The notes under the pieces are model-generated. The model made no database searches. It was not told the DNA's origin and worked only from the letters and a program-made list of their open reading frames with translations. From Flavobacteriales bacterium (GTDB lineage: Bacteria; Bacteroidota; Bacteroidia; Flavobacteriales_D; CAJJDF01), in assembly GCA_020630395.1 (NCBI GenBank), contig JAHDBM010000004.1, forward strand, positions 20,701 through 84,700: 64,000 nt of DNA, given 5' to 3'. Position 1 is the stretch's first letter. The number at the start of each line of letters is the position of its first letter. Shown in pieces: positions 36,662-47,900 of this stretch. A program made the translations under genes and the position numbers.

Positions 36662-38413
36662 ATGAGACTGTTATTATTATGTATACTAATTACTTCGTTT
36701 AGTTTTGGGCAATCTAAGCCTAAAATTAATAAGAGAGGAATTAAACGAGTTACTTACTATTATGATGCTGCTAAAACTAAACGTCAAAGTAGCGGACAAA
36801 TAGTTGATAATCCTAAATTTTCCTTTAATGGAGCAAAAATGGGAGCTTGGACTTTTTGGCACGAGAATGGAAATGTTCAAGAAAAATCTAATTATTACTT
36901 AGGTAAACTAGACGGATTAGTGAAACAGTATTATCCATCTGGAGAAATTAAAACACAAGGAACATTTATACAAGGTATTCAAGAAGGTAAAATGACAGCA
37001 TATTACCGAAATGGAATTATTGCAGAAACAGGGAGCTTTATAGATGACAAAAGAATAGGAGAGTGGGTTGCTCGATATAGGGATTCTAGTTTAATGAGAT
37101 TATCAATTTATGATTCGCTAGAAAACGAAAAATTAATTGAATATTATAATGCCAAAGGAGACCATCAAATTAAAAGTGGTAATGGAAAAATGATTTCCTA
37201 TTTTACTAATGGAAATATTAAACAACAATATGCGTATAAAGATAGCCTCAGAAATGGAGATTTTATTGAATATAAAGCAAATGGTAAGTTGAAAATAAAG
37301 GGCGCTTATGTAAATGATATTCCTCATGGAGAATGGAAAGAAATGTATTTGTTTACCGATAGGCTTAAAGTATCTAAAACCTACAATAAAGGAAATTTAA
37401 CAGGGCCTTATGAGAAATATTTTCAAAGCGGAGATCTTAACATAAAAGGAAATTATAAAAATGGGTTAAAAAATGGATACTGGACTTGGTTTACGCGTAA
37501 TAAGCAAGTAGACATGAAAGGAGGCTTCAAAAATGATGAACAACACGGTAAATGGACTTACTATTATACTAATGGTAAAGTAAAATCTACAGGGAAGTTT
37601 TTCGAAGGAAAGAAAAAAGGTTTATGGAAGTATTTTTATAAAGACGGAAGTAAATGGAAAGAAGGAAACTTCGATAATGGACTAAAAGAAGGAGAATGGA
37701 GTGTTTGGTTTGAAACTGGTGATTTATCTCACAAAGGGAGTTATAAAAAAGGAGTAGAACATGGTATTTGGGAATCTTGGTTTGAAAACGGTCAAGAAAA
37801 AGACAAAGGTGAATACAATAATGGTAAAATGACTGGCACTTGGGAAGGTTGGTATCCTAACGGGAATAAAAATTATTTAGGAACTAGGAAGAATGATATG
37901 AAAACAGGTGAATGGGTGTATTGGCATTCCAATGGAATAAAAAAAGAAGAAGGAAGTTATAAAATAATGACGGTTGAAAGAGATAATTTTTCACTTGTTG
38001 GAGGGGGAGATAATCAAAAAGAGGCAAACCAATCAATTGAATCAAGTTTACCAACTATAACGAAAAGTGTTAATGATGGTAAATGGAAAAAATATAGCGA
38101 AGTGGACGGGAGCTTGGTAAGTGAAGAAGAGTATAAAAATGGAGAAAAGTCTGGAGAGTGGAAATACTACTATCCTGGAGGGGTGATAACAAATTCAGTT
38201 ACTAACTATAAAAAAGGAAAACTAAATGGAGTTAGTAAGCGCTTTGATAGACAAGGAAGAGTTACAAGTATTGTCAATTATAAAGAAAATGTAAAACACG
38301 GTAAAATGATTGTGTACGATACAAAGTCAGGAGAGGTATTATATGAAGAAAAATATAAGTTTGGTTTTAAAGAAGGAAAAAAAGGAACAAATTATTCTCC
38401 AATAAAACGGTAA
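36662..38413 (+). CDS. MORN/YwqK-like repeat protein
   Basis: Many copies of GxWxxYxxNGxxKxxGxYKNGxxxG. Confidence 0.85.
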   Translation: MRLLLLCILITSFSFGQSKPKINKRGIKRVTYYYDAAKTKRQSSGQIVDNPKFSFNGAKMGAWTFWHENGNVQEKSNYYLGKLDGLVKQYYPSGEIKTQGTFIQGIQEGKMTAYYRNGIIAETGSFIDDKRIGEWVARYRDSSLMRLSIYDSLENEKLIEYYNAKGDHQIKSGNGKMISYFTNGNIKQQYAYKDSLRNGDFIEYKANGKLKIKGAYVNDIPHGEWKEMYLFTDRLKVSKTYNKGNLTGPYEKYFQSGDLNIKGNYKNGLKNGYWTWFTRNKQVDMKGGFKNDEQHGKWTYYYTNGKVKSTGKFFEGKKKGLWKYFYKDGSKWKEGNFDNGLKEGEWSVWFETGDLSHKGSYKKGVEHGIWESWFENGQEKDKGEYNNGKMTGTWEGWYPNGNKNYLGTRKNDMKTGEWVYWHSNGIKKEEGSYKIMTVERDNFSLVGGGDNQKEANQSIESSLPTITKSVNDGKWKKYSEVDGSLVSEEEYKNGEKSGEWKYYYPGGVITNSVTNYKKGKLNGVSKRFDRQGRVTSIVNYKENVKHGKMIVYDTKSGEVLYEEKYKFGFKEGKKGTNYSPIKR

Positions 38414-39220
38414 ATGAAAAAAATAGTATTAGGATTTAGTGGTTTATTGTTTCTAATAGCATGCAACAATAAAAGAGATAACGTTAAAACAGAAGAACAA
38501 GCTACAGTAGAAGAAACTACCGATAAAAGAGCAGTAAATCCATATGTTGCTTCTATTGAAGAAGCTCATAATAAAAATAAATTTTTAAAGGAAGAGGTAG
38601 TGAGCTTTAACTTGAATCTTTCTTTTGGGGGTAAAGAACGAATTAATGGCAAACTAACCCTAGCAACTAACTCCAGTAAAGGAAGGTTAGATTATACCAA
38701 TGGTAAAACAATCCTCTATAATCAAGATGGGATTTATTATTCTAATAATTTTGAGTCTACTCAAGGAATAGGGTTTGATGCTTATACCTGGTCATATTTC
38801 TTTTTGTTTCCCTACAAATTAAGTGATCCAGGAACTAAATGGGCAGACTACACAGCTACCGATTCACTTAGTAAATCTCATAATACTAAAAAATTATTGT
38901 TCGAAGCTGGTACAGGTGAGGCTCCAGATGATTGGTATATCACCTATGCAAACAAAGGAAATAATAGGGTAGATTATGCGGCTTATATTGTTACTGCAAA
39001 TAAATCTCAAGAAGAAGCTGAAGTAGACCCTCATGGTATACGATACATTAATTATAAAGAAATAAATGGAATACCAATTGCTCACAGTTGGACTTTTTGG
39101 GCTTGGAGAGATGGTTTAGGGTTTACTAAACAATTAGGAGAAGCAGAACTTACTAATGTTGAATTTCGTAAAGAAGAAGAAAAAGAGTTTATTCCATCAA
39201 CAGATTTTATAAAATTATAA
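38414..39220 (+). CDS. Lipoprotein (DUF6503-like)
   Basis: Lipobox LFLIACNNK; GRLDYTNGKTILYNQDGIYY. Confidence 0.65.
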   Translation: MKKIVLGFSGLLFLIACNNKRDNVKTEEQATVEETTDKRAVNPYVASIEEAHNKNKFLKEEVVSFNLNLSFGGKERINGKLTLATNSSKGRLDYTNGKTILYNQDGIYYSNNFESTQGIGFDAYTWSYFFLFPYKLSDPGTKWADYTATDSLSKSHNTKKLLFEAGTGEAPDDWYITYANKGNNRVDYAAYIVTANKSQEEAEVDPHGIRYINYKEINGIPIAHSWTFWAWRDGLGFTKQLGEAELTNVEFRKEEEKEFIPSTDFIKL

Positions 39221-39221
39221 T

Positions 39222-39893
39222 ATGATAAGAGTTGGATTTATATTGATATTGTGTATGATTGGATTGTTTGGATCAAGCCAAACAATTAACTCAGTTTATT
39301 TTGAAAATCCTCAGCCATTAAATACTAAAAACACTTCTTCTTTTAGTGCTGATGTTATAGGAAGGTATTATAAAGCAACTGATAACATAATAGACCTTGT
39401 AATAGATTCAACTAAAATAGAAGTAAAGTATCTAGTTAAGATGTTACTTAGAATGGATGAAATAAAATCTAATGATAAATATTACATCAAAAATAATTTG
39501 CTGTATGGAGTAAACGAAAAAAAGGGATTGGAGTTTTTTGTAAAAAACGATACAGTATATTTTGGTGTATTTCAAACGGAAACTTTTTTTGAACAAACTG
39601 ACTCATCTTTTATTCGAAAAATTGGCAATAAATATGTGTTAAATGAAAAAAAGGAAGATGCTTGGGACGTGACAGTTCTATACAAAAAGGATACAACACT
39701 CTATATAAGAACAATTGATTTAATTGAAGAAGAAGAAAAAGTAAACAAATATTTAGCTCCACTTACTAAAAAAGTAATCAATAAAGAACATACTTACATC
39801 AGTAATCCATCTGTAAAGAAGATGAAAAGCTTTGTTTCAGCAAAAGGCTTTTATGATATTATTAAGTATCATGTTAAGCTAGAGGAGGAGTAA
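39222..39893 (+). CDS. Secreted hypothetical protein
   Basis: Signal peptide; tail-to-tail overlap with the 39874..40611 gene. Confidence 0.55.
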   Translation: MIRVGFILILCMIGLFGSSQTINSVYFENPQPLNTKNTSSFSADVIGRYYKATDNIIDLVIDSTKIEVKYLVKMLLRMDEIKSNDKYYIKNNLLYGVNEKKGLEFFVKNDTVYFGVFQTETFFEQTDSSFIRKIGNKYVLNEKKEDAWDVTVLYKKDTTLYIRTIDLIEEEEKVNKYLAPLTKKVINKEHTYISNPSVKKMKSFVSAKGFYDIIKYHVKLEEE

Positions 39894-40611
39894 CATCAAC
39901 ATGATCGTTATCAATAGGTAGGTTATTCAAAATAACAATCTTTTGATATATCTTTCTACTTAACCCAGTAGTGAGTACTTCAATTTCATTTACCGATCGT
40001 ACAATAACTTCATCTGGTAAACTTTGAGAATATAAGGCTGCAACCTTTGCAATTAATGCATGTGCTTCTGAGCAGTAATCTAAATATCTTTGTAATTCAA
40101 ATCGAGTTAAAGTTCGCTTTGGAGAATTGACTGTGTTAAAGTTTTTAGAAAGAATTAAGTTAGGGTCTTTTGTGAGTTGATGCATATCTATAACATGAGC
40201 GATTACTCTTAATTCATGTAATGATTTAATTGTTCTTTTTCGTTTAACACGAGTTTCAATTGTTACTAAAAAGAAAACAGCTGCACCAAGCAATACAATA
40301 TCATTAAAAATAGCTTCTGTTATTCCGACAACATTACCTAGTGTTGTATTTTCTATTTTAAGCTCAATAAACGTTACACTAAATACTAAACCAATTAATG
40401 CAGTAATAATAAGACCGTAAGCAAAAATTCGCAATGGAATATTAGGTTTTGATACCCATTCAATATTCTCTTTACTGTTTTTAGTTAAGGTTAATAGATT
40501 TCCGACAGCTTTACGTAAACCAGATTCGGGAAATCGATCTGCAATACGCATTTCCAGTTTATTAACTGTACGAATAATTTTTTCAGGATCTAATTGATTA
40601 TTTAAGCTCAT
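39874..40611 (-). CDS. Two-TM membrane protein, last gene of dlt-like operon
   Basis: ATGA overlap with dltA-like stop; two hydrophobic segments. Confidence 0.65.
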   Translation of the reverse strand: MSLNNQLDPEKIIRTVNKLEMRIADRFPESGLRKAVGNLLTLTKNSKENIEWVSKPNIPLRIFAYGLIITALIGLVFSVTFIELKIENTTLGNVVGITEAIFNDIVLLGAAVFFLVTIETRVKRKRTIKSLHELRVIAHVIDMHQLTKDPNLILSKNFNTVNSPKRTLTRFELQRYLDYCSEAHALIAKVAALYSQSLPDEVIVRSVNEIEVLTTGLSRKIYQKIVILNNLPIDNDHVDVTPPLA

Positions 40612-42110
40612 TTATATAGTCCTTTTTTAAAATTTTCAACTAATTGTTTTCCATCAATTTTATGGTTTGCATTAACCGGAAATTCATGAATAGCAATAAT
40701 GTTTTTAGGAATCATATAAGCGGGTAATTTGGGTTTAATTGCCTCTTTTACATTATTAGCGGTTGCATCATTAGTATTCACTAATTGAACAAAGCTAATA
40801 ATGGCTTTAACATCATTTCCTCTTTTTAAAGGAACAGTATAAGCGAGCTTTACAATTTCTAAATCATTTAAAACAGATGTAATTTCTCCAAGCTCTATTC
40901 GGTATCCGTTAAATTTTATTTGATTATCAATCCTACCATTAAAAAACACCATATCGTCTTTGTAATAGCCTAAATCTCCAGTACGATATGCCTTTTTACC
41001 CTCAATCGTAAAAAACTTTTCTTTTGTCTGCTCAAGATTTTTAAAATATCCGGTAGAAACATGATCGCCAATTAATATGATTTCACCAATTGGGTTATCA
41101 TTTTCTATAGGCTCAATCATAACATCACTATCCCGTTTAGGAAAACCAATTGGAAGTATTTCATAAGTAGATAAAATTTCATCAGTAAGTGTAATCCATG
41201 TACTTGTTATAGTTGCTTCAGTGGGACCATAAGCATTAATTACTCTACATGCATTAAAATTATTGAATAGCGTTTTTACTGTTCTTTTGGGTAGTTCTTC
41301 TCCTGCAAATACAAATGTTTTTAACTGTGGAAGTTCAGAACTATTAAAATTTAATTCTCTTAAATACAGATAAACAAAAGAGGGAGTAGAAGTCCAAACT
41401 GTACAGCCGTATTGCTTTATCTTATCGATAAAATCATCTTGTTTGGCTTGTTCTCTACTCACTAAAAATAATGATGCCCCTAATGAGAACGAACTTAATA
41501 GATCATAAAGAGATACATCAAATGTAAAGGGTGATTGATTTAAGAAAACATCATCTTTGGAATAGCCATAATCTTGATGTATCCAGTCTAAAAAGCTTAG
41601 TAAACAAGTATTGGTAATTTGAACCCCTTTTGGCTCTCCAGTCGAGCCAGAAGTGAACATAATATAGCGTAATGGATCATTTGCATTCCAAAAGATATTA
41701 TCTTCATTATAATTTGGTGTACAAGAGATGTTGACGCTACAATCAAGATTAATCTCAGCAGCAAAAATAAGAGGTAACGTTTTATTGGTACAGTTAATCA
41801 CTACTTGACTATTAGATGATTGTTGTATAGTAATTAAGCGTTCATTTGGATAAATAGTATCGATAGGGATATATGGAATATCTAAATGAATTAGGGCTAA
41901 TATACTAATAGCATAATGAGCTTCTTTATGTCCGTATATGATAACCGGATGCCCCTTGGGAATAGATAAGCTTTCTATAGCTCCTTTAAGTTTTATAACA
42001 TGATTATATGTTTCTTGCCAGGTTAGCGATTTATCACTCCCATAAATACAAGGCTTATCTTGATTAATTTCCAGCTCTTCAAAGCTATTGGTATGGAAGT
42101 TAAATTTCAT
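40608..42110 (-). CDS. dltA: DltA-like amino acid--carrier protein ligase (adenylation domain)
   Basis: YIMFTSGSTGEPKGVQIT, SPFTFDVSLYDLLSSFSLG, VWTSTPSFVYLYL, LKTFVFAGEELP, NAYGPTEATITST, YRTGDLGYYKDDMVFFNGRIDNQIKFNGYRIEL. Confidence 0.88.
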   Translation of the reverse strand: MKFNFHTNSFEELEINQDKPCIYGSDKSLTWQETYNHVIKLKGAIESLSIPKGHPVIIYGHKEAHYAISILALIHLDIPYIPIDTIYPNERLITIQQSSNSQVVINCTNKTLPLIFAAEINLDCSVNISCTPNYNEDNIFWNANDPLRYIMFTSGSTGEPKGVQITNTCLLSFLDWIHQDYGYSKDDVFLNQSPFTFDVSLYDLLSSFSLGASLFLVSREQAKQDDFIDKIKQYGCTVWTSTPSFVYLYLRELNFNSSELPQLKTFVFAGEELPKRTVKTLFNNFNACRVINAYGPTEATITSTWITLTDEILSTYEILPIGFPKRDSDVMIEPIENDNPIGEIILIGDHVSTGYFKNLEQTKEKFFTIEGKKAYRTGDLGYYKDDMVFFNGRIDNQIKFNGYRIELGEITSVLNDLEIVKLAYTVPLKRGNDVKAIISFVQLVNTNDATANNVKEAIKPKLPAYMIPKNIIAIHEFPVNANHKIDGKQLVENFKKGLYK

Positions 42111-42141
42111 GTATTAATTTTTATTATTCCACTATGAATTG

Positions 42142-43308
42142 TTATAAAAAGGGAAAATAACCACTAAAAATATAAATGGCAAATGCTGTTATGTTAAAGG
42201 TTATAATGATAGATAAAACCGTAACTATTTTAGGGGATAAACCACCAAAGAACACATCTTTTTTCTGTTTTCTACAGTTATAAACGTATGTATTATGTAT
42301 TACTGAGTATAAACCAAACAAAGCACCACTAAGAATAAAATTTTTATGAAACCCATTCCAGCATCCCATAAGCGTAAAAGTGGAAAATAAGGCTAAGTTT
42401 TGTCTTATAAGTGGTTTCTTTTTTAGCTTAGGTTTCTTACTAAAGAATTTATAGAAAGGAGTGAAAAAATAATCTTTAAGCCAGTCTCCAAGAGTAATGT
42501 GAAACCGTTTCCAAAATTCCTGTGGATTTTTAGCTAAAAAAGGAAGGTTAAAGTTTTCAGGTACATGAATTCCCATCATCTTTGCTATGCCAATAGCCAT
42601 AGAAGAGTATCCTGCAAAATCGAAAAATAAGTATAAGTGATAGGAATACATGGTGTTTAACATGGGTAACACTTCTTTTGCATGTACATCTTGCCATGGT
42701 AACCAATAGCGGTTAATAGCTTCAGCAATTACATATTTATATAATACTCCTAGTAAAAAAAGCTCCCAGCCCTTTATAACGTTTTGCAGGGTTAAGTTGC
42801 TGTACCCAGTAGCTATGTTTTTTTTAAACCTTGGGTATCGATCAATAGGACCAATTAGGATTGTTGGTGTAAAAATTAGGTAGTTGGTATACGATTTAAA
42901 ATCTATCGCTTTATCGGTAGGTTTAGCATCTAAATAAATGCTAATTAATCGAAAACTGATGTATGATAGACCAGCAAAGAATATAAATTCACTGATGTTA
43001 TTAGGGTAAAAATCAACTTTAATATTAGCCTTAAATACAATCATAGGGAGTAACATAAGCAGAACTCCTAATAATTTCTTTTTTGGTTTAATAATCTCCT
43101 GGAATAAAAAGTATATTCCATAGGTATAGCCTAAAAACAATACTAAGTGTAGCGGTTTAGGATAATACAATAAAATATAAGCAACACTTAATAATAAAAT
43201 TGCCGAACCATAAGGAATAACCTTGCTTAAAAAGGCTTTTATAAAGTAAAGCACCAGAATAAAAATTCCAGCAATAATAAAATAATCTATGGAACTAAAT
43301 GGAGCCAT
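42142..43308 (-). CDS. dltB: DltB-like MBOAT acyltransferase
   Basis: FWKRFHITLGDWLKDYFFTPFY, FFDFAGYSSMAIGIAKMMGIHVPENFNLPF, multi-TM. Confidence 0.88.
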   Translation of the reverse strand: MAPFSSIDYFIIAGIFILVLYFIKAFLSKVIPYGSAILLLSVAYILLYYPKPLHLVLFLGYTYGIYFLFQEIIKPKKKLLGVLLMLLPMIVFKANIKVDFYPNNISEFIFFAGLSYISFRLISIYLDAKPTDKAIDFKSYTNYLIFTPTILIGPIDRYPRFKKNIATGYSNLTLQNVIKGWELFLLGVLYKYVIAEAINRYWLPWQDVHAKEVLPMLNTMYSYHLYLFFDFAGYSSMAIGIAKMMGIHVPENFNLPFLAKNPQEFWKRFHITLGDWLKDYFFTPFYKFFSKKPKLKKKPLIRQNLALFSTFTLMGCWNGFHKNFILSGALFGLYSVIHNTYVYNCRKQKKDVFFGGLSPKIVTVLSIIITFNITAFAIYIFSGYFPFL

Positions 43309-43454
43309 TAAAAGTTTTGATAAACAAAAGTTGAGTTAGAAGTAGGTTGTTGCAAATCATTACTATATGGCTTGTAGATAAACCATATTCCTAATATAAT
43401 AGCTGTATATAAAATCACTTTCCAAGTAGTATTTGAAATAAGTTTATCTTTCAT
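43308..43454 (-). CDS. dltX: DltX-like 48-aa single-TM microprotein
   Basis: MKDKLISNTTWKVILYTAIILGIWFIYKPYSNDLQQPTSNSTFVYQNF; position next to dltB and C-terminal FVYQNF resembling DltX FIYNEF; stop overlaps dltB ATG by one base. Confidence 0.75.
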   Translation of the reverse strand: MKDKLISNTTWKVILYTAIILGIWFIYKPYSNDLQQPTSNSTFVYQNF

Positions 43455-43509
43455 CAATATTATGTTAATTATAGTTGGTTGTTTACTCATTCAATAACAA
43501 ATTAGCCCA

Positions 43510-44694
43510 TTATGGGCTTTCATTGTATGGAATGTTATAATGATTAATAATTTTTTGGTTTATTCTTAGCCAACCATAATCTCCTAGGTGCATAACATCA
43601 GTTAACATTCCTTTTTCATAATGAGCAGTATCGCTAATAAACATATTAAAAGTAGGGATGTTAAATCGATTACTTATAGATTCTATAGAATCTATAATGG
43701 GGGTTAAATCGGTTAGGTTTTCGTATGCATAAGGATTTAATGGCTGTATAATGAATAAGGGATCGGCTTTATATTCGTGTAATAATTGACATAATAACCT
43801 AAAGTCTTGTAATTCCTGATTATTATTCATTTCTGGAATTTTTTGAAAAGCTTTTTTCCCTTTTGTGTAATTGGTATAGTAGTCATTATTTATACCCCAT
43901 TTATTATTAGTTGATTGATTAGTGTGGTCGTTTATTGACTTGGCTGTTAATTTATCCCACTTTATGCTAGGTAAACTGTCTTTTTTTGGTGTGTGGTTGC
44001 AGTTGTCTGGAAGAACGGGAGTAATTTCTTTTCTAGAGTTTAGCAATAGATTATTTATAAAGCTTAGAGGAGCATTTTTTATTTTACTCCATTCGTTACG
44101 ATCATAATAAAAAGCCTTCATTACCCATGAAGGACTACTGATGTCATTATAATTTCGGGAGATATAATCACTTAGAGCTTGCTTATAGGTGTAATTTAAA
44201 GAATCATTTCGGTATATATTTAACAGAAAACGCTCGTTAGCATATTCTAAGAAAGATGGAATAGAAGTTCCTTTTTCATAACCATTCGTAAACCATCCAG
44301 GCGAAACAACCACAATAATTTTACTATCCTTTAGGTATTGACTATAATGTAATAGCTGAGTGAAAATTGCAAAATTTTGATTTCCTGCATGTCCCATTCC
44401 AAGCACATTCGAATAGGTATGTTTAGGAATAAAATGAAACGGTTTAAGTTTTGAAGTGTCTTTTCCAGTTAATTCGGAAGAACCTAAAATAAGAATGTTA
44501 TTTTTTATTGATAAGTTAAGCGCTATATCAGCTTCAGCTTGATCGCCTTTATCATAATTTAAGTAAAGGCCAGATGTTTTGGAAAGACATAGACTATCAG
44601 GTGTTATTTCGTTCTCCGGAAATGTAGTAATGCAAAAATAGGAGATGCCCCCAGCAACAATTAATGTGATTAAATGAAGAACAACTTGTTTCAT
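43510..44694 (-). CDS. dltD: DltD-like protein
   Basis: LGSSELTGKDTSKLKPFHFIP, GHAGNQNF, SPGWFTNGYEKG, DVMHLGDYGWLRINQKI. Confidence 0.87.
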   Translation of the reverse strand: MKQVVLHLITLIVAGGISYFCITTFPENEITPDSLCLSKTSGLYLNYDKGDQAEADIALNLSIKNNILILGSSELTGKDTSKLKPFHFIPKHTYSNVLGMGHAGNQNFAIFTQLLHYSQYLKDSKIIVVVSPGWFTNGYEKGTSIPSFLEYANERFLLNIYRNDSLNYTYKQALSDYISRNYNDISSPSWVMKAFYYDRNEWSKIKNAPLSFINNLLLNSRKEITPVLPDNCNHTPKKDSLPSIKWDKLTAKSINDHTNQSTNNKWGINNDYYTNYTKGKKAFQKIPEMNNNQELQDFRLLCQLLHEYKADPLFIIQPLNPYAYENLTDLTPIIDSIESISNRFNIPTFNMFISDTAHYEKGMLTDVMHLGDYGWLRINQKIINHYNIPYNESP

Positions 44695-44918
44695 TGTTTC
44701 TCTAAGTAGGCTACAATATGATTTATGGATTCAAAGTGTTCTGGAATGACATCACTATTAGGAATGTGAACATCATACTCCTCTTCAATAGCAACAACAA
44801 GATCCACTACCACAATTGAATCTAATAAACCAGACTCTATTAAAGATTCTTCATTGGAAACTTCAGTAAACGCTAGTTCGTTAATTTGCTCTTTTAAAAA
44901 ATCATGTAAACCTTCCAT
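44691..44918 (-). CDS. dltC: DltC-like acyl/aminoacyl carrier protein
   Basis: 75 aa with carrier motif IESGLLDSIVVVDLVVAIEEEY; ATGA overlap with dltD. Confidence 0.87.
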   Translation of the reverse strand: MEGLHDFLKEQINELAFTEVSNEESLIESGLLDSIVVVDLVVAIEEEYDVHIPNSDVIPEHFESINHIVAYLEKQ

Positions 44919-44973
44919 GTGGCAAATATAGGGATTTAAAGATTGTATAAAAAGAGGCTTTTAGCTTCTTTTT

Positions 44974-47900
44974 TTACTGAAATAAGTTAATCCTCAAGGC
45001 AAACCCAACATTTTGGTTCATGGTTGGGAAAGAAGTAGAGATAAATGGATTAGTCATGACTCTGTCGTAGTAAAAACGTAACGTAAACTGTTTGTTTATT
45101 ACATAATCAGCAGATGCTTTTATAGAGATGTATCTTTGTCCAGCAGTAAGTTGATTTTGTTCTTCTACAATTTTTCTAATAATCGTTTTATTACTACGTA
45201 TAGACATATCTAAACGAGCATTAATATCACTAACAGGTTTTTTCTTACCAATTTTAAATGGAAGCTCTACTTTTTCGAAACGGTAACCCGTACCAATTGT
45301 AATTTCATTTCCTTTAAGTTCAGTAATTTGGTTATTCGTTAAACTTAACGAGATGTTTCGGTTACTCTTGTATTCAAACTTTGTGATTAAACTGTTTTTC
45401 CAGGTCGCATCTACTTTAAATAGTGGACTAAATTGCTCAGTAATAGATACGGCTAAAATTTGTTGTCCAGGGATAAAATTATTTGCTTGATCTCTAGCGG
45501 TTAAATTACCAAGAGCATCCTCACTAGATTCTAGGTTAGTTGTAAACGTAGCAATATTCATAGTAGAGTTGTAAGCATGAGAGAACGTAATACTCTTAAA
45601 GATTTTCTTCATTGCTTCAATTCTATTTAATCCATCAATGGTTAACCTCCAGTTTAATGCAGGTAAGTTCTTAAAAGGATTAAGTTTATTTGGGTTTAAT
45701 GATTTTCCAGCATAAGAACTCAAGAATGAATTTATTAATACATCTTGTTGCGTGCCATCATAACCATCATAAAATCCAGTAGCTTCTTGTGTACTAGAGT
45801 TTGCGTTTTTCTCACTTAACATTCTAGAAGCATCTCTTCGTGTTTCTAATAACTTATTAAATAAAGCTGATTCACCATCTTCACCATCTTTACTAAAAGC
45901 TGTTTTAAGAGAGTTAAACGAGATACTGTAATTACCCGTTCTCATGCTGTTTAAGTGGTTATATGTATTGGTACTATCCCACATAAAGTTTTCAGTTAAA
46001 TTCTCAGAGAAGGTTAGGTTAGAAGTAAGTTCTAAACGCATTCCTCTAAACGGTTCAAAAGAAGCCCTTCCATTAAATTTTTTAGAGTGATTAATCGTGT
46101 GTTGTTGGGTAATAAACCTACTGGTACTTCCAACTAGCCAATTATTAGCAGCTGCTCTTATGGCAAAATCGTTATCAGTTTGTCTTCCAAATATATCACG
46201 TTCTTGTTCTCCACCAAAAACAAAAGGAACACCAGGAGCTGTAAAACCATTCGACATACCAAAGAACTCTGTCCTTTCTTTATAACCCGGAAGTAATGTA
46301 CCGTCAATTACACTATAATTAAACGTAACAGTTTTAAGCGACATTAATACTTTAGCAAAAGCATCAGTGAAGGTAAGTTTATTAGGGTCTTTTTTCTTTT
46401 TCTTCTTGTCCTCTCCATCTTTTTTGTCTCCATCTTTTTTAGCGTCTTTACCTTTTGGATCTTTCTTTGTTTCAGGCTTTCTTCTAGATGGTCTTCTTCT
46501 TCGGTTACCTTTTTGGTTAACTTTTCTTAAGTATGGAACCTTATTGTAAAGGTTTATCATATTAAAATTACCATTCCATGCTACATTTCTTGAGTTTTGG
46601 ATGGTGTTTCCTAAGCTATCTTGGCTTAATGGAGCTCTTTGCCAATCGTAGGCAACAGAATATTTAGTAGTAAGGTTAACAAAGTCTAGTAAAGGTATTT
46701 TTCTAAATGGCCATTGATAAGTAACATTGGTAGTTTGTGCATAATGGTTGTTTTCCCCAAAATTTCGAATACTTTTCCAAACACTATCTTTTACTTGCTC
46801 AAATTCATCAGCATAAAGTGTTTTGTTAACTCTTAAATCTTGTGGTTCACCAATAAAACCATTATTGTTAGCATTGTAATCAATTTTTAATGATTTAGTT
46901 AAATCCCATTTTAAATCATAATTTCTATCCCAAGTAAATGTCTTAGAGAACTGAGGTATAATTAAAGCGTTACCTGTTATATCTCTTGCTTTAGATTCGT
47001 TATACGTACGATCCATATTGGTTCTAAAAGCAAATTGTTTTGGAATAGGAGAGAGGTTAAAATCTCTAACCAATTGAAACCATTTAGATTTTCTTAATGC
47101 CTTATTATTCCTAAAAGGAGTCCAAGGCTTCATTTTAGTTTGATAGGTATAATTTAACTGACCATTATAGGTTCTGTTAGTGTTGTAATCAGTTTGTATG
47201 TCACGTCTATATAGCTCATTGTAAGCATAGGAAGCGGCAAAGTTTTTTATATCCCAAGGATAACTTTTTTTGCTTTTCTTTTTGGGAGCAATCCTCACAT
47301 TGGTAAGGTTCATACTCCTTCTAACGGTTAAGTCTCGTGAAGCTTTTCTTCTTTTTTGTTGTTCTTCTGCAGTTAAATCGGCAACAGATTCTTTAAACTC
47401 AATATCTGGGTTAAGTGGGTCAAATTGTGGATCGATAATACCTTCAGAAAAACCTAAGAATAGTGGTATTTGCACACCAGCATCTTTTCCAAAGAATTTA
47501 CCAAGTTGAATGTTAGTTGTGGCATCAACTTGCTTAATGGTTTCCCTTTGTCGATCACTTACTTTTTGATCGATACTACCAAACCCAGGAGTACTAATAT
47601 GACCAGCTAATGCAATATTTGCAAAATCAGCTAAATTTGCCTGAACTCTAGATTGTGCTGCATAACCTCCTTGGTCGTCAAAATCAGTCATACGAAGCTC
47701 ATTAATCCATATTTTAGCACATTTATCTAATCCATCATCTGGCATCCAAGGATGGTTTTGATCTTTATGAGGGTTTCTAACTCCAACCATAATGGTTCTT
47801 AATCCTTGTAAATTAGGATTACCAATTACTTTAATAATATGATCTGATTTGCCAGGTACTGCTTGCTTAAATAATGCTAGTAGAGATGCTGCGCCAACAG

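Follow-up and report, generated by a model that had tools for sequence, protein, structure and literature searches.

A dlt-like cassette in a Flavobacteriales genome belongs to a Gram-negative Dlt branch with asparagine in place of the conserved MBOAT histidine

The DNA analyzed here (the window) is a stretch of 64,000 nucleotides from a Flavobacteriales bacterium (contig JAHDBM010000004.1). On its minus strand, positions 40608-44918 hold all five genes of a dltC-D-X-B-A cassette, and the genome also has genes for lipopolysaccharide (LPS) synthesis and the type IX secretion system (T9SS). Gene content, linkage, motifs, phylogeny and an active-site substitution were observed directly, and we consider it probable that the cassette encodes an aminoacyl export relay of the Gram-negative Dlt branch; the chemical steps, amino acid, acceptor and phenotype of this proposed relay are drawn from homology. 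DltB, a membrane-bound O-acyltransferase (MBOAT), has asparagine at the position of a histidine regarded as invariant in its family. A literature search, with many subscription papers beyond reach, returned no description of Dlt in Bacteroidota and none of a Gram-negative DltB missing the MBOAT histidine; nor did it turn up an account of the two DltA pocket classes in Bacteroidota described below.

A first-pass annotation had described five contiguous minus-strand Dlt-like genes in an LPS producer, and both parts of that description were borne out. Open reading frame coordinates, profile searches and the FVYQNF motif confirm the five genes (Table 1), with an ATGA overlap at the C/D junction (44691/44694), a one-base TAATG overlap between X and B (43308), and gaps of 31 bp between B and A and of 55 bp between D and the 48-aa start of X. 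That start is the ATG at 43454; an upstream ATG at 43490 would give a protein of 60 aa (43308-43490). The DltX microprotein has a single hydrophobic stretch, ends in FVYQNF, an instance of the FXYXXF motif, and had no match in the profile libraries. The carrier has LDSI, and GSSEL and D-x-x-H are intact in DltD. DltD scored above the PF04914 cut-off (22.7) and at 143 bits against TIGR04092 (cut-off 150), the strong DltB and DltA matches lie below curated cut-offs of 375 and 476, and the top NCBIfam match of the carrier is DltC, at 40 bits against a cut-off of 68. Because of these scores below the NCBIfam cut-offs, we regard the proteins as distant Dlt members. The first-pass annotation had named placement of the MBOAT and adenylation enzyme in unrelated families as the outcome that would speak against it; both matched the DltB and DltA profiles instead. 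Searches against solved structures matched the window proteins to DltA, DltB and DltD chains, and the AlphaFold model of the MBOAT (mean predicted local distance difference test score, pLDDT, 75) had a template modelling score of 0.83 to solved DltB. Elsewhere in the genome lpxA, lpxC-fabZ and lpxD scored above profile cut-offs, and the T9SS genes include SprA, PorP/SprF and a sorting tail.

Table 1. Features of the dlt locus, in window coordinates
Feature	Position	Strand	Characteristics
DltC-like aminoacyl carrier protein, 75 aa	44691-44918	-	PF00550 31 bits; phosphopantetheine Ser in LDSI
DltD-like membrane-anchored SGNH transferase, 394 aa	43510-44694	-	PF04914 174 bits; GSSEL Ser, D-V-M-H Asp/His
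DltX-like single-transmembrane microprotein, 48 aa	43308-43454	-	Acyl-shuttle motif FVYQNF at the C-terminus, including the acceptor Tyr
DltB-like MBOAT, 388 aa	42142-43308	-	TIGR04091 258 bits; solved-structure matches 6bug/8jem
DltB Asn318 codon AAT	42355-42357	-	Place of the MBOAT invariant His; MGCWNG vs MGFWHG
DltA-like aminoacyl-carrier ligase, 500 aa	40608-42110	-	NF003417 439 bits
Predicted membrane protein, 245 aa	39874-40611	-	No family match; judged outside the Dlt system

The DltD family PF04914 is rare in the phylum: among 396 sampled genomes only the window's own had a full-length match, and within the order such matches occurred in 11 of 299 genomes, the window's included, from three families. 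Order relatives were collected through DltD. As a pattern-scan query of the genome collection DltD returned no relatives, and the wider set was gathered instead with a DltB alignment, which added further Bacteroidota, 4 Campylobacterota, 22 Betaproteobacteria and 29 Firmicutes. The synteny across Bacteroidota proposed as a check in the first-pass annotation was found, the five genes being co-conserved in ten order relatives and in other Bacteroidota loci. Its claim that the C-D-X-B-A order is distinct from the Gram-positive one also stands: all ten order relatives share this order, as do the loci of Bacteroidota, Campylobacterota and Betaproteobacteria with few exceptions, while the order in Firmicutes is X-A-B-C-D (C-D-X-A-B in Desulfosporosinus). 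Locus L044 has D-C-X-B-A, and L062 has a 1.3-kb spacer ahead of X. A DltX with F-x-Y-x-x-F was present in every locus that covers its place (33 Bacteroidota, 3 Campylobacterota and 22 Betaproteobacteria); L053, L054 and L056 have the carrier motif SSI or TSI rather than DSI, and a DltX ending in FIYAQF or FVYAQF. Weak DltD matches (20-32 bits) in other genomes were rejected as Dlt, as those examined were MBOAT loci without dltA, dltC or dltX. In both the DltB and the DltA tree all Gram-negative rows fall on one side and Firmicutes apart (support 100 in both), and by these sequence comparisons the window locus is a member of the Gram-negative Dlt branch that includes the Bordetella/Achromobacter dra systems.

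Two further features of the cassette, an altered MBOAT active site and an altered DltA pocket, had been missed by the first-pass annotation. The DltB of Streptococcus thermophilus has His289, the "invariant" His336 and Tyr345 in its active site (PMC11035591), and the MBOAT histidine has been called present in all MBOATs and required for PatA and DltB activity (PMC12148441). The window DltB keeps the equivalent of His289 (His270), has Asn318 for His336 and thus lacks the residue held to be invariant, and has Ser327 for Tyr345. The alignment at this site is secure (MGCWNG vs MGFWHG). Each of the 62 Gram-negative DltBs sampled, 22 of which are close Betaproteobacteria and hence not independent, has His-Asn-Ser at these three positions, and each of the 29 from Firmicutes has His-His-Tyr; Bordetella is represented here by Bordetella genomosp. 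13 (L071), not by B. pertussis. Part of the 62-sequence set was gathered with the pattern MG[FC]WNGF, which itself contains WNG. That this pattern pre-selected Asn was rejected as an explanation: the order relatives came via DltD and yet have Asn, which is likewise found in sequences that do not match the pattern, namely the Betaproteobacteria (MGVWNGL), Campylobacterota, L037, L053, L054, L058 and a Klebsiella copy. The Dlt-linked MBOAT of eight dlt-positive genomes carries WNG; where the motif can be read in their remaining MBOATs it is WHG, so WNG is not a general habit of these organisms; the window DltB is the sole MBOAT found in its genome. Most simply, the His to Asn change would have arisen once and then been kept. 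DltB residue 275 (42484-42486), beside the conserved Trp276, differs as well, with Asp or Glu in 54 of the 62 Gram-negatives against Phe in 28 of 29 Firmicutes, a difference possibly linked to the replacement of His by Asn.

The DltA pocket differs in another way. Asp197 and Cys269 of Bacillus cereus DltA hold and select D-alanine; the enzyme prefers D- over L-alanine about 2000-fold, against about 17-fold after a C269A change (values calculated from the published table, PMC4176424). In the window DltA the pocket Asp and Lys are kept and Cys269 is replaced by Ala, in FVFAGEELP. Cys269 is kept throughout the Firmicutes (29 of 29) and in the readable sequences of Betaproteobacteria (21) and Campylobacterota (3); among 36 Bacteroidota DltAs, 18 have Cys and 18, the window's included, have Met, Ala or Ile. 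Most of the Bacteroidota DltAs without Cys269 also carry FDVSL[CY]D and NAYGPTEAT, and the two pocket classes largely follow the DltA tree. Four loci (L042, L043, L045 and L046) combine a class-1 DltA, with Cys269, and a DltB of the window's clade; forcing their DltB into the other clade was rejected (p 0.03), and their DltA is placed there with support of 100. This suggests, with moderate support, that the adenylation enzyme was exchanged between cassettes on a conserved export chassis. Another locus, L031, has a DltB of the first Bacteroidota clade and a long-branched DltA without Cys269 (FAGEALP, FDFAS), which may reflect another, independent replacement of DltA.

By homology, DltA would activate a small amino acid, probably D-alanine, and load it on the phosphopantetheine arm of DltC. 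DltB would then move the aminoacyl group through the inner membrane to the Tyr in the FVYQNF of DltX, and DltD would hand it on from this Tyr to a hydroxyl outside. In Firmicutes the Tyr of the C-terminal FXYXXF of DltX takes D-alanine from DltB and passes it to DltD (PMC12148441). Of the two active-site histidines, the window DltB retains only His270, with Asn318 in the partner position. This arrangement is the reverse of that in the eukaryotic MBOATs ACAT1, DGAT1, HHAT and PORCN, whose active site pairs Asn or Asp with a His (PMC11035591). We consider it an evenly balanced proposition that these Gram-negative MBOATs, with Asn for His and Ser for Tyr, work through a reversed His/Asn site run by the other histidine, and that DltA has been exchanged on the chassis so that the amino acid exported to the surface possibly differs among Bacteroidota. 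Judged by homology, the relay most likely attaches D-alanine or another small amino acid akin to it, through an ester bond, to an envelope glycan in the periplasm; an alanine racemase is present. The poly(glycerophosphate) polymerase family PF04464 was not found in the eight dlt-positive genomes (other polymerases were not searched), and a teichoic acid acceptor therefore seems unlikely. The first-pass suggestion of another envelope polymer holds to this extent, but its candidates, LPS, capsule and gliding-related polysaccharide, are not separable because no neighbor is conserved beyond closely related loci.

Several findings weigh against a D-alanine relay of this kind. DltB, DltA and DltD score under curated NCBIfam cut-offs; Firmicutes DltB and PatA reportedly need the equivalent of His336, and the chemistry of this branch could differ; the Ala at the Cys269 position makes the identity of the amino acid uncertain; and the neighboring genes give no hint of the acceptor. 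The relay of the window's DltA class may carry L-alanine, glycine or another small residue in place of D-alanine, which we hold to be a real if less likely possibility. The 18 of 36 Bacteroidota DltAs with Met, Ala or Ile at a position where Firmicutes, Betaproteobacteria and the readable Campylobacterota keep Cys would fit such a change, as would the separation of the two DltA classes in the tree and the apparent exchange in the four mixed loci. On the other hand, the pocket Asp and Lys are kept in the window DltA, the C269A enzyme of B. cereus still prefers D-alanine (PMC4176424), and the closest NCBIfam models are D-alanine ligases. It is rather doubtful that the acceptor is an outer-membrane protein or lipoprotein instead of a glycan. 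An outer-membrane protein is the main alternative because a protease-susceptible component is reported in Bordetella; against it, the characterized MBOAT/SGNH relays that one paper names act on glycans or teichoic acids (PMC12148441), and no acceptor gene is linked to the window cassette.

The loss of His336 could also mean that DltB no longer catalyzes the MBOAT step and serves just to bind DltC, DltX and DltD, given that the equivalent histidine is needed for PatA and DltB activity (PMC12148441). We consider this improbable, as W-N-G and Ser327 are invariant in 62 sequences, which points to purifying selection on a working site, and the rest of the relay is intact; moreover, dlt phenotypes are reported for dra and for Dickeya dlt (PMC9858536, PMC5541007). 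Hardly credible is an ordinary MBOAT-SGNH acetylation system of the PatA/AlgI type with a fortuitously adjacent adenylation enzyme, even though related genomes do have MBOAT loci without dltA (the weak DltD matches L032-L035). The MBOATs of those loci have WHG, and in acyl-CoA-type MBOATs the C-terminus itself bears FXYXXF (PMC12148441), a motif that in the window lies on the separate DltX and not on the MBOAT. Complete loci conserve the carrier gene together with the adenylation gene, and this linkage already contradicts a chance arrangement. A Gram-negative Dlt relay with an altered DltB site remains our preferred reading.

The gene downstream of dltA, joined to it by an ATGA overlap (40608/40611), encodes a predicted membrane protein of 245 aa that the first-pass annotation had counted as an extra component of the system. 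We rejected it as a Dlt component, since it is absent beside the dlt loci of the ten order relatives and beside the other dlt loci fetched, and its relatives in other orders (45-69% identity) have no dlt gene within the stretches read. We take it to be a separate gene that merely lies downstream. A single-sequence structure model of the protein (mean pLDDT 48) was of no use. Its family (the window and L160-L164) has no Pfam or NCBIfam name and is sparse in the class, and identity of up to 69% between orders hints at horizontal transfer. Among the dlt loci compared, no neighboring genes were shared in synteny beyond one group of four close loci. A clean empty site was not found in the only same-genus genome without dlt. 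In that comparison (window 36662-44974 vs L119 and L125), gene order differs between SprA and a TMEM260-like/MORN block, which lie on different contigs of that genome, and the cassette is thereby placed at a rearrangement point. Foreign origin judged by base composition was rejected, as the cassette, with a GC content of 0.31, hardly differs from the window (0.32).

In mechanistic papers a single histidine is taken to mark all MBOATs and to be their catalytic residue. A long-conserved branch without that histidine in an intact relay is a natural experiment in which its role is directly testable. The distribution found here also extends aminoacyl envelope decoration to many Bacteroidota and some Campylobacterota, where it is apparently undescribed in the searchable literature.

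LPS producers with Dlt are already known, Bordetella dra and Dickeya dlt being precedents; Gram-negative Dlt is established in Bordetella and in Dickeya/Pectobacterium (PMC9858536, PMC3544676, PMC5541007). In Bordetella, the incorporation of D-alanine into the outer membrane depends on dra (PMC9858536), and the Dickeya/Pectobacterium dlt confers peptide resistance, probably via LPS (PMC5541007). Like the window locus, dra lies on the same side of the DltB and DltA trees and has the C-D-X-B-A order and the His-Asn-Ser site, and the loci of Achromobacter, Schauerella and Bordetella genomosp. 13 have a DltX with FQYQQF and a His-Asn-Ser DltB. They differ in that DltB identity to the window is only about 33-38% and the betaproteobacterial DltA keeps Cys269, where the window has Ala. 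The Dickeya/Pectobacterium systems have the same five components in a Gram-negative, a likeness based for Dickeya on the published description rather than on our own sequences. A Klebsiella electrica plasmid (L120, NZ_CP041250.1 54621-67325) carries a complete cassette between insertion sequence elements, with the same five components, a WNG DltB and a DltX with FEYQKF that is annotated merely as a hypothetical protein; its order is D-X-B-A-C, and Ile takes the place of Cys269 in its DltA. An Enterobacter cloacae plasmid carries the L120 DltB too, a K. pneumoniae plasmid record holds part of it, and no close copy of the Klebsiella cassette was found among E. coli genomes. The AlmEFG system, which transfers glycine to lipid A, uses the lipid A aminoacyltransferase AlmG in place of MBOAT and SGNH proteins. 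The window transferases are instead MBOAT and SGNH by profile; no search for AlmG was made. PatA/PatB O-acetylation shares the logic of a relay from MBOAT to Tyr to SGNH but has an acetyl-CoA donor, no carrier or adenylation enzyme, the motif fused to the MBOAT C-terminus and the catalytic histidine present (PMC12148441). The window MBOAT has WNG and no FXYXXF, while the non-Dlt MBOATs of its relatives have WHG and most of them also FXYXXF. Firmicutes dltXABCD shares with the window the five components, the DltX motif, the DltD catalytic residues and the DltB fold, and the window cassette is set apart from it by the C-D-X-B-A order, the change of MBOAT His336 to Asn and Tyr345 to Ser, the altered DltA pocket and the absence of a PF04464 match.

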